DNA of 64,000 bases, from positions 3,206,664-3,270,663 of the forward strand of contig CP030158.1 in assembly GCA_003285105.1 (NCBI GenBank), in the 5' to 3' direction. The notes beneath the pieces are model-generated. The model was not told where the DNA came from, made no database searches, and saw only the letters and a list, made by a program, of their open reading frames with translations. A program made the translations under genes and the position numbers. Source of the DNA: Roseithermus sacchariphilus. Lineage in GTDB: Bacteria; Bacteroidota; Rhodothermia; Rhodothermales; MEBIC09517. Numbering within the stretch: the first letter of the stretch is position 1; every line of letters starts with the position of its first letter. Positions 20,996-24,441 of this stretch are shown one piece after another.

Positions 20996-21589
20996 ATGAG
21001 GAAACCCATCGCGGAAGTCATCGAATCCGGCACCCGCTCGTTCGTGGCCGAGGTCTACCGGGAGGCCGAGCCGCCCGCGTTCGGGGCGTGGGTGCGCGTG
21101 CCGGGGGGGGCCGCGGTGCTCTACGCCGTGGTCAGCCACGTCGAGATCGGCAGCGTCGAGCCCAACCGGCGGGCGGTGGCCTTCGGCAAGACGCCGGACG
21201 AGCTGCGCCGGGAGATGCCGCAGGTGCTCGAACTGCTGCGCACCACGTTCCGCGCCCAGGTCGTCGCCTACCGTCCCGAGGGCGGCCCGCTCCGCCAGAC
21301 CCTTCCGCCGCAGCCGGCCGACATCCATGCCTTCGTCGCGCCGTGCCCGGCCGACGAGGTCAAGGCGCTCGGTGCGCCGTTCGACTACCTGCGCACCCTC
21401 GTGCGCCATCCCGACCCATCCGTCCCCGTGGACGATCTGCTCGTGGCGCTGCTGGGGCAGATCTACACGGCCCATGGCGGGCCGCACGGGGGCGAGCAGG
21501 CGCTGCTGGCCGCCGGCCGCGTGCTCAGCCGGCTGATGGACGACGACCACGAACGGCTTCAGTCCGTCCTGCGCCGGGTGGTCGTGTGA
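20996..21589 (+). CDS. HAS-barrel domain protein, HerA N-terminus-like
   Basis: A 197-residue protein without an ATPase domain. 'GTRSFVAEVYREAEPPAFGAWVRV' and 'VLYAVVSHVEIGSVEPNRRAV' resemble the HerA-ATP-synthase (HAS) barrel, followed by 'FGKTPDELRREMPQVLELLRTTFRAQVV' and 'LPPQPADIHAFVAPCPADEV', which are shared with stand-alone bacterial HAS-barrel proteins. It follows nurA by 66 bases on the same strand, and the next gene is convergent, so the operon ends here. In HerA this barrel docks NurA; the free-standing version may be an adaptor. That role is inference from the neighbour. Confidence 0.75.
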   Translation: MRKPIAEVIESGTRSFVAEVYREAEPPAFGAWVRVPGGAAVLYAVVSHVEIGSVEPNRRAVAFGKTPDELRREMPQVLELLRTTFRAQVVAYRPEGGPLRQTLPPQPADIHAFVAPCPADEVKALGAPFDYLRTLVRHPDPSVPVDDLLVALLGQIYTAHGGPHGGEQALLAAGRVLSRLMDDDHERLQSVLRRVVV

Positions 21590-21615: not shown

Positions 21616-21650
21616 CAGAAGATGATGCCGATTCAGAAGATGATGCCGAT
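21616..21650 (-). repeat. Tandem 17-bp repeat at the 3' end of a barrel gene
   Basis: The same 17 bases occur at 21616-21632 and 21634-21650, period 18. Read on the minus strand the upstream copy encodes IGIIF followed by a TGA stop; the downstream copy stays in frame as IGIIF but with TGC in place of TGA. Confidence 0.9.
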
Positions 21651-22139
21651 GCGAAGCGGCAGGGCGAAGCGGACCTTGTCTTCTTCGATGAGCATCTGCG
21701 GGTCCGCCTCGTAGTAGATCGTGGTTTCGTAGAGCCGCTGCACCCATCCGGCTCCCAGGTGGAAGAACGGGCTGGCCGGGCGTCCTTCGTCGTCGCCGAT
21801 GGGGATGTAGAGGCCGAGGCCGGTGAGGATGTAGAGCGCCCGCTCGGATTGCTGGGGCACCGTCACGATGAGCGAGGCCTGCGGGTCGAACAGGTAGGAG
21901 GCGTCGTCGAGCCCCAGGAAGATGAAGCCGGTCAGCCCCAGGTCCAGCGCGGCCGAGAGGTCCGCGTTGAGGGGTTGCGACAGGCGGGTGCGCAGCCCCA
22001 TCCCCACGCCCTCGCGGACGTCGGCCTGCAGGTTCAACCCGAAGCCGTAGCGCGTGCGTTCGGGCTGGGCCGCGGCGGAGGGGGCCAGCAACCCGGCCGT
22101 CAGAAGCAGACACGCGGACAGCGTGAAAACACGATGCAT
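21633..22139 (-). CDS. Small exported outer-membrane-type beta-barrel protein
   Basis: A 168-residue protein. MHRVFTLSACLLLTAGLLAPSAAAQ is a signal peptide, and the ATG at 22139 is chosen for it. The mature sequence is a series of amphipathic strands: TRYGFGLNLQADVREG, 'GLRTRLSQPLNADLSAALDLGL', 'SLIVTVPQQSERALYILTGLGLYIP', and it ends with RIGIIF, a terminal Phe as in many outer-membrane barrels. No family is recognised with certainty. It may be an 8-stranded OmpX/OmpW-like barrel. It is convergent with the HAS-barrel gene, 43 bases apart. Confidence 0.65.
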   Translation of the reverse strand: MHRVFTLSACLLLTAGLLAPSAAAQPERTRYGFGLNLQADVREGVGMGLRTRLSQPLNADLSAALDLGLTGFIFLGLDDASYLFDPQASLIVTVPQQSERALYILTGLGLYIPIGDDEGRPASPFFHLGAGWVQRLYETTIYYEADPQMLIEEDKVRFALPLRIGIIF

Positions 22140-22410
22140 ATGATGAAAAAGGGATGGTGTCTGGGACAGGCCGGAGGCAAGGTACGTCGGGCTCCCGTGC
22201 GAAAGACAGGCCAAAACGATGAAGAATGGGCGTTTTTCGGGAGCCGGGCGGCCCAGAGCCGCCGGGGGTGCCGCTCCCGGTCCCCCGCGCCGAGAAAGGC
22301 TGCGTTTCAAAAAGCAAAATCCTTCGCTAAGTTAGCGGCGACCCGCCCCGGCACGCGTCTCCCCGGCGCCGGGGTGGGGACGACCCCGTCTACTCATCCC
22401 GCATCCGATC

Positions 22411-23640
22411 ATGCGTACCCCCACCCCGGTGCCTGACGCCAGCCCCGTCAGCACGACCTACGACCCGGCCGCCTTCGAGGCGCCCGACTACTACGCCCTC
22501 GACGACCTGCTGACCGAAGAGGAAAAAGCCATCCGCCAGCGGGTGCGGGAGTTCGTGACGCGGGAGGTGTTACCGGTGATCGAGGCCCACGCGCAGGCGA
22601 TGACGTTTCCGCGGGATCTCGTCCCCGAGATCGCCCGGCAGGGGCTGCTCGGCCCGTCGATCCCGACGGCCTACGGCGGGGGCGGGCACAACGGCATCGT
22701 CTACGGCCTGATGATGCAGGAGGTCGAGCGCGGCGATTCCGGGCTGCGGTCGTTCTGCTCGGTGATGAGCTCGCTCGTCATGTATCCCATCTGGCGGTAC
22801 GGCAGCGAGGAGCAGAAGCGCAAGTGGCTCCCGGCGCTGGCCCGGGCCGAAGCCATCGGCTGCTTCGCGCTCACCGAGCCCCACCACGGCTCCAACCCCG
22901 CCGGGATGGAGACGCGCGCCGTGCGCGACGGGGGCGAGATCGTCATCAACGGCCACAAGCGCTGGAGCACGAATGCCTCCGAGGGCGATGTGTGCGTCGT
23001 CTGGGCTCGCGATGACGAAGGGGATGTGCGCGGGTATCTGGTCGAGCTGGACCGCCCCGGTGTCTCCACGCCGCGGATCATGGACAAGTGGTCCCTCCGG
23101 GCGGCCATCACGTCGGAGGTGATCTTCGACGAGGTGCGCATTCCCGCCACCAACCAGTTGCCCGAGGCGAAGGGCCTGCGGGCGCCGCTCTCCTGCCTGA
23201 CGCAGGCCCGCTACGGCATCGCGTGGGGCGTCATCGGTGCGGCCATGGCGTGCTACGACGCCGCGTTGCAGCATGCCCGGAACCGCGAGCAGTTCGGCCG
23301 CCCCATCGGTGGCTTCCAGCTCATCCAGGAGCGGCTCGTGGAGATGGTCTCGGAGATCACCAAGGCGCAACTCCTCGCCTGGCGGCTCGGCAAGCTCAAG
23401 GATGCCGGTACGATGAGGCCGCAGCAGGTGTCGCTCGCCAAGCGCAACAACTGCCAGATGGCGCTCGACGTGGCCCGCTCGGCCCGGCAGGTGCTCGGCG
23501 GCAACGGGGTGCTGGGGATGTATCCGGTGATGCGCCACATGATGAACCTGGAGTCCGTCATCACCTACGAGGGTACGCACGAGATTCATACCCTCATCGT
23601 GGGCCAGGACCTGACCGGGCTCAATGCCTTTGCCGGCTGA
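22411..23640 (+). CDS. Acyl-CoA dehydrogenase, glutaryl-CoA dehydrogenase-like
   Basis: A 409-residue flavoprotein. It has 'GPSIPTAYGGGGHNGIVYGLMMQEVERGDSG', the FAD motif 'CFALTEPHHGSNPAGMETRA', 'QARYGIAWGVIGAAMACYDAAL', 'REQFGRPIGGFQLIQERLVEM', and 'ARQVLGGNGVLGMYPVMRHMMNLE'. The catalytic base is E387 in TYEGTHEIHTLIVGQ, in the position used by glutaryl-CoA and short-chain acyl-CoA dehydrogenases. The YEGTHEIH sequence is especially like glutaryl-CoA dehydrogenase, which would degrade lysine/tryptophan-derived glutaryl-CoA, but substrate cannot be fixed by reading. No electron-transfer flavoprotein gene is adjacent. Confidence 0.87.
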   Translation: MRTPTPVPDASPVSTTYDPAAFEAPDYYALDDLLTEEEKAIRQRVREFVTREVLPVIEAHAQAMTFPRDLVPEIARQGLLGPSIPTAYGGGGHNGIVYGLMMQEVERGDSGLRSFCSVMSSLVMYPIWRYGSEEQKRKWLPALARAEAIGCFALTEPHHGSNPAGMETRAVRDGGEIVINGHKRWSTNASEGDVCVVWARDDEGDVRGYLVELDRPGVSTPRIMDKWSLRAAITSEVIFDEVRIPATNQLPEAKGLRAPLSCLTQARYGIAWGVIGAAMACYDAALQHARNREQFGRPIGGFQLIQERLVEMVSEITKAQLLAWRLGKLKDAGTMRPQQVSLAKRNNCQMALDVARSARQVLGGNGVLGMYPVMRHMMNLESVITYEGTHEIHTLIVGQDLTGLNAFAG

Positions 23641-23741: not shown

Positions 23742-24089
23742 ATGCCGGAAGAAATCGTTGCCATCATCATCATTGCCATCGTGGCAGGAACGATCACGGG
23801 CGTCATCAAGCAGATCCTCCAGTACAAGCGGGACACGAAGCTGCAACAGGGCGGCGTGGCCAATGCACAGGGTGGCGTGACCACGAGCGAGCTGAAGGGC
23901 TTGCTCCGGGAGGCCGTCGAGGAGGCGACGGCGCCGCTGGTCGATGAGGTCGAGCGCCTGCGTGAACAGATGGCGCGGCTGGAACGCCCGGCGCTGCCCG
24001 AGGCCGAGATGACGCGGCTGCTCGATGCGGACGACGTGGAGCCACCTTCCACCGAGGCGGTGCGGGCCTCCCGTCGGCGCACGTCCTGA
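23742..24089 (+). CDS. Small single-TM coiled-coil protein, tandem copy 1
   Basis: A 115-residue protein: a hydrophobic N-terminal helix (EEIVAIIIIAIVAGTITGVI, residues 3-22), a short basic linker, then an amphipathic/coiled-coil segment (SELKGLLREAVEEATAPLVD, 'EVERLREQMARLE'). This layout (TM followed by cytoplasmic coiled coil) resembles PspB, but there is no convincing sequence match. The next gene, 31 bases downstream, is a paralogue sharing a 24-residue core starting GGVTTSEL and ending EEATAPLV with no amino-acid change. Function unknown. Confidence 0.75.
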   Translation: MPEEIVAIIIIAIVAGTITGVIKQILQYKRDTKLQQGGVANAQGGVTTSELKGLLREAVEEATAPLVDEVERLREQMARLERPALPEAEMTRLLDADDVEPPSTEAVRASRRRTS

Positions 24090-24120
24090 TCCATCCTGAC
24101 CCACCCGATCACTGTCGACC

Positions 24121-24441
24121 ATGCCGTTCGAGGTGTTCATCATTGCCATCGTGGCGATCAGCGTGGGGGCCGGCGCGGTCATCACGATCGTCAAGTCCGT
24201 CCTGGGGTATCTGGATCGGCGTGAGGAGCGGCGGCTGGGCGTTGGCCGGGCGGGAGGTGTGACCACGAGTGAGCTGAAGGGGCTGCTGCGGGAGGCGGTG
24301 GAGGAAGCCACGGCGCCGCTGGTCGAGCGGCTGGAGGCGCTGGAACGCCAGCGGCCGGCCGCCGGGTTGCCGGGGCATGACCCGCACCGGCTCCCGGAGC
24401 CACAGACCCCGGCCGATACGGCAGCGCCACCGCCCGCCTAG
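24121..24441 (+). CDS. Small single-TM coiled-coil protein, tandem copy 2
   Basis: A 106-residue protein. FEVFIIAIVAISVGAGAVIT is the N-terminal membrane helix, followed by a basic stretch (LDRREERRLG), the same GGVTTSEL...EEATAPLV core as the preceding gene, a short coiled coil (ERLEALERQ) and a Pro-rich tail. The tail and linker differ from copy 1, while the core is identical. Separated by 31 bases from copy 1 and convergent with the asparagine-synthase-like gene. Function unknown; co-transcription with copy 1 is likely. Confidence 0.75.
   Translation: MPFEVFIIAIVAISVGAGAVITIVKSVLGYLDRREERRLGVGRAGGVTTSELKGLLREAVEEATAPLVERLEALERQRPAAGLPGHDPHRLPEPQTPADTAAPPPA

Follow-up and report, generated by a model that had tools for sequence, protein, structure and literature searches.

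Two tandem genes of Roseithermus sacchariphilus belong, on sequence comparison, to an order-restricted family distantly resembling PspB

Two adjacent genes within a 64,000-nucleotide stretch of the Roseithermus sacchariphilus genome (the window) belong, on sequence comparison, to an undescribed family of small membrane proteins that is restricted to the order Rhodothermales and distantly resembles PspB. What is new is the family, which was previously undescribed; the general PspB-like build is already known. We propose that the two are tandem members of this family acting as membrane-anchored coiled-coil adaptors encoded apart from the psp genes, a proposal that we consider evenly balanced between right and wrong.

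Two small membrane proteins with one core

Gene 1 (23742..24089, + strand) is an open frame for a putative PspB-like small membrane protein of 115 aa and, in a whole-genome search, matches the family profile with an E value of 4.5e-28. Gene 2 (24121..24441, + strand), an open frame for a putative PspB-like protein of 106 aa, follows after a gap of 31 bases and matches with an E value of 3.3e-25 in the same kind of search. A preliminary description of this DNA had reported two adjacent genes, each with an N-terminal membrane helix and a core behind it; the frames are open as placed, and hydropathy agrees. The membrane helix spans residues 4-22 in gene 1 (23751..23807, +; 19-residue hydropathy, 2.54; net charge of +3 in the next 15 residues) and residues 5-23 in gene 2 (24133..24189, +; 19-residue hydropathy, 2.71; net charge of +2 after the helix). 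AlphaFold2, run on a two-sequence alignment, predicts helices in gene 1 at residues 2-36 and 48-80 with a low mean pLDDT of 66.9. The second of these (23883..23981, +), predicted to be cytoplasmic and consisting of the core and its continuation, reaches a pLDDT of about 77-83 over the blocks that take in residues 51-80 and is amphipathic by hydrophobic moment shuffling (P = 0.0135); by shuffling, the amphipathicity of the gene 2 helix was not significant (P = 0.10). The count of K and R is higher after the membrane helix than before it in 98/99 family members, which by the positive-inside rule indicates a cytoplasmic C-terminus. Hydropathy, charge and the low-confidence predicted helices thus describe a membrane helix at the N-terminus with a cytoplasmic helical domain after it, the arrangement expected of PspB. 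A basic tail, with at least three K or R in the last eight residues, ends 47/99 members, often behind an acidic stretch, as at window positions 24060-24089; gene 2 lacks such a tail.

The core, GGVTTSELKGLLREAVEEATAPLV, occurs in both genes, at 23871..23942 (+) in gene 1 and at 24253..24324 (+) in gene 2. Our recount agrees with the 10 synonymous differences and zero amino-acid changes reported for it earlier: all 24 residues are identical, and 10 of the 24 codons differ, by one base each. If changes fell at random in the core, the probability that 10 of 10 would be synonymous lies between 6e-6 and 2e-5, according to the weight given to transitions. By the Nei-Gojobori method, dS is 0.75 and dN is 0 in the core, dS is 0.79 and dN is 0.77 in the part N-terminal to it (42 codons), and dS is 1.08 and dN is 0.57 in the C-terminal part (32 codons), bearing out the earlier statement that helices, linkers and tails had diverged. 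With codon usage taken from eight genes in the window, full saturation would give 12.0 codon differences on average (SD, 2.4), and the 10 observed come close to that (P for a count this low or lower, 0.27). Since synonymous sites in the core are near saturation and dS is alike in the flanks, the duplication is old, and the dN of 0 against a dS of 0.75, the comparison that had been suggested as a check, shows strong purifying selection on the core; both parts of the earlier interpretation are therefore upheld.

A family confined to one order

With a family profile built from an alignment of 43 members, 39 of the 60 order genomes searched, that of R. sacchariphilus included, proved to carry the family. 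These 39 genomes carry from one to six copies (one in 19 genomes, two in 14, three in 1, four in 2 and six in 3), which supplies the homologue search and copy count that had been proposed. In a sample of 247 genomes from the phylum, 18 gave a match, 17 of them from the order and one from outside it (G122); the outside match lies in a 324-aa frame and covers only profile positions 37-88 of 111, was judged a chance coil match and was rejected as a family member. Gene 1 alone as the query found matches in 38 of 114 order genomes at an E value of 1e-6, and gene 2 as the query in its own genome recovered the pair and otherwise weak matches (best E value, 0.05). The members collected amount to 99 distinct sequences assigned to 54 genomes; in the genome tables, R. 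sacchariphilus is the only representative of its taxonomic family. Three genomes with six members each (L069:7729-8536, L073:7904-8717 and L074:7495-8352) have a main tandem array plus further loci without the usual neighbors.

Searches of the window proteins against Pfam, NCBIfam and PHROGs returned weak matches only, to BAG, CorA, the RcGTA tape measure and PHROGs of unknown function; we took these as chance and rejected all of them as identities. PDB sequences searched with the family profile gave five weak matches (best E value, 0.19), and our search of the literature for Rhodothermus small membrane proteins and for duplication in Rhodothermales found nothing relevant among the papers listed.

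The identical core is peculiar to this genome

In the family at large the core mostly varies and is no generally invariant element; on this point the preliminary description does not stand as worded. The residues that the window shares with more than 75% of the 97 other members are E (0.93), L (0.98), A (0.77), V (0.94), A (0.81), P (0.92) and L (0.95). Near-invariance is thus limited to some six of the 24 positions, and at eight positions the window residue occurs in less than 20% of the other members. The cores of both window copies share at least six residues that few family members have (<15%), which means that the cores are of common descent in this lineage and do not reflect a universal demand. 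Among the 4157 member pairs with a helix identity of 40% or less, the window pair alone has a core identity of at least 90% (the next has 87.5%), and the highest other core identity among 74 within-genome pairs is 71%. The 24/24 identity is thus peculiar, within the family, to the R. sacchariphilus genome. Free variation of the core among homologues had been named as an observation that would count against the earlier account, and it holds by half: few core positions are fixed across the family, and mean core identity between genomes at equal helix divergence is 0.41-0.44. We also considered whether the copies within a genome generally evolve in concert and rejected this; in the helix-identity bins below 0.45, mean core identity is 0.43-0.49 within genomes versus 0.41-0.44 between genomes, only a slight excess and in the lower bins only.

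Origin of the pair

To explain the pair, an ancient duplication whose core stayed under constraint is enough. A rival reading, which we find plausible but would not bet on, is a plain lineage-specific tandem duplication in which the membrane helices drift fast and the core slowly, with no special co-constraint on the two copies. Both copies begin with MP, dS is even over their length, and the shared rare core residues fit a single ancestor. A tree of the N-terminal part sets gene 1 and gene 2 apart, yet a topology that pairs them is not rejected by the AU test (P = 0.177), a result that fits plain duplication and counts against exchange between already distinct members. The other 8 of the 9 identical-core pairs in the family, however, have a helix identity of at least 70%, so that divergence of the core is as a rule more tightly coupled to that of the helix than it is here.

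Another explanation, to which we give less credence and which we regard as rather unlikely, is that the core was homogenized by old gene conversion or partial recombination between members that were already distinct, with the synonymous changes coming later; the identity would then reflect shared recent ancestry of the core and not exceptional constraint. The shared rare residues would suit this explanation as well. In the helix region, gene 1 is nearest to a copy from G022 and gene 2 to a copy from G327 (20/30 each), whereas they match each other at 12/30; the cores match each other at 24/24 and any of the 97 other members at no more than 17/24. When quartets were drawn from members starting with MP, the core paired the two copies in 630/630, whereas the helix paired them in 266/630, splitting them in 345 and tying in 19. 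The quartet made with the two best helix matches split the copies in 1993/2000 column bootstraps, but it was chosen after the matches had been seen, and when quartets were drawn from the full set of 97 other members, the helix paired the copies in 3118/4656. The core dS is, moreover, similar to that of the flanks, and the 10 codon differences lie near saturation. Recent gene conversion limited to the core, the other observation that had been named as damaging to the earlier account, is unsupported because dS is even along the genes and near saturation; an older conversion of the core is possible.

Remote similarity to PspB

In the envelope stress response of bacteria, PspB acts as both sensor and adaptor. 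It was the family most often matched by the 43 members, both in Pfam and in NCBIfam: 19/43 matched TIGR02976 (best E value, 2e-5) and 16/43 matched PF06667 (best E value, 6.2e-5), with matches that cover both the helix and the coil. A shuffle control left the first 32 residues (the membrane helix), composition and hydrophobic pattern unchanged; of the shuffled sequences, 0/43 matched TIGR02976 and 1/43 matched PF06667 (E value, 0.13); PRK09458, another NCBIfam model of PspB, matched 11/43 real members versus one shuffle (E value, 0.13). The likeness along helix and coil therefore goes beyond composition, and we conclude from these profile matches that the resemblance of the family to PspB is remote but specific. 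When whole genomes of the order are searched with PF06667, several of the best matches also fall on family loci. The clearest case is one member (L078), which matches the family profile with an E value of 9e-21 and TIGR02976 with an E value of 1.4e-6.

Curated cut-offs were not reached by the members: the best member seen scores 28.4 bits against the 51.7 demanded by TIGR02976, and L078 scores 25.5 bits against the 25.6 of PF06667, although its place in the genome scores 25.7 bits, over that cut-off, when the flanking frame is included. Because these cut-offs are unmet, the family is not filed as PspB. The window proteins themselves gave a best E value of 0.51 against PspB, over the membrane helix only, and otherwise no match; in terms of the cut-offs, they scored 10.7 bits and no match. 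The statement in the preliminary description that no known family is recognizable thus holds for the window proteins taken singly but not for the family as a whole, which is remotely PspB-like. The absence of any kinship with PspB, with a match generic to a membrane helix plus an amphipathic helix (a convergent coiled coil), would fit the subthreshold scores and the fact that other coiled-coil or membrane models match too (an NikL-type ECF subunit in NCBIfam, 17/43), but the loss of the match in the shuffles and the coincidence of top PF06667 matches with family loci make it doubtful.

We hold that the family is built like PspB, as far as its sequences tell: the members are of similar size and share a single N-terminal membrane helix, a short linker and a predicted cytoplasmic helix ending in R-I/V-x-x-L-E. 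Unlike PspB, they have a longer, acidic/basic tail, score below the curated cut-offs, start the helix with S/T-x-S-E-L and have a conserved P-L inside it; they are confined to one order and occur away from pspA and pspC, in tandem arrays with as many as four members at a single locus. One published account (PMC11237479) reports duplicates of PspB inside an operon and describes the protein as rare outside proteobacteria.

No psp genes were present at the locus, where pspA, pspC and pspF were sought as neighbors. The R. sacchariphilus genome encodes PspC twice and PspA once, with PspC at 4.277 Mb, PspA at 1.900 Mb and the window at 3.207-3.271 Mb. Among the 60 order genomes, PspA is found in 59, PspC in 58 and the family in 39; PspA and PspC are present with or without the family, and there is thus no signal of co-occurrence with either. 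A second, single PspB-like protein is encoded in the same genome beside a DivIVA gene (L097:3976-4347, - strand; G000:C1, about 4.316 Mb) and matches TIGR02976 with an E value of 7e-5 and PF06667 with an E value of 0.001. It likewise has a membrane helix and a coil, but it is single copy and lacks the S-E-L helix start and the P-L of the family; its type is present in 14/60 order genomes (E value of 0.01 or less).

Possible function

As membrane-anchored adaptors, the two proteins would be held in the inner membrane by the N-terminal helix, with the remainder in the cytoplasm. After a short linker, the amphipathic helix, running from the conserved S/T-x-S-E-L through A-V-x-E-A-x-x-P-L-x-x-R-I-E-x-L-E, is predicted to form a coiled coil that, as in PspB, may dock on itself, on the sister protein or on a membrane or signaling partner, the protein probably serving as an adaptor and not as an enzyme. 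Docking through the post-linker helix is the simplest reading. Both copies in this lineage would have to show the same docking face, which would explain why selection preserves the protein sequence of the core and lets anchors and tails vary; that two copies kept one face suggests a shared partner or hetero-association. The partner might belong to envelope homeostasis, with PspC and PspA, encoded elsewhere in the genome, as candidates; binding to either of them and a role of the family in envelope stress are guesses by analogy with PspB. More speculative still, and in our view improbable, is that the array provides interchangeable anchors that show one lineage-specific docking helix, the identical 24-residue face allowing hetero-oligomers or competition for one partner and the faces being kept matched while the anchors specialize.

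On that last view, a PspB-type adaptor system would have departed from the psp operon and expanded within Rhodothermales. A PspB-like family that is spread through the order, multiplied in tandem and placed at a conserved locus away from pspA and pspC would illustrate adaptor reuse. The window pair offers a natural test of which surface matters, as one stretch is unchanged in two old paralogues.

A conserved locus

At least one of the window's eight neighbors lies nearby in 35 of 41 loci (40 from relatives plus the window itself; some genomes supply more than one locus, and neighbors were sought within the retrieved stretch), which suggests that the family has mostly been inherited in place. 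Directly upstream of gene 1 is an acyl-CoA dehydrogenase gene (22411..23640, +; Pfam Acyl-CoA_dh_1, _N and _M), and such a gene starts less than 2 kb upstream, on the same strand, in 12/41 loci. Pfam confirmed as neighbors NurA, the acyl-CoA dehydrogenase, an Asn synthase domain, PPDK, TopA and RsgA. Two further neighbors, a 197-aa frame (20996-21589) and a 225-aa frame in the opposite orientation (21633-22310), provisionally labeled HAS and OMP, had no Pfam match; their place beside NurA and the family is kept across the order.
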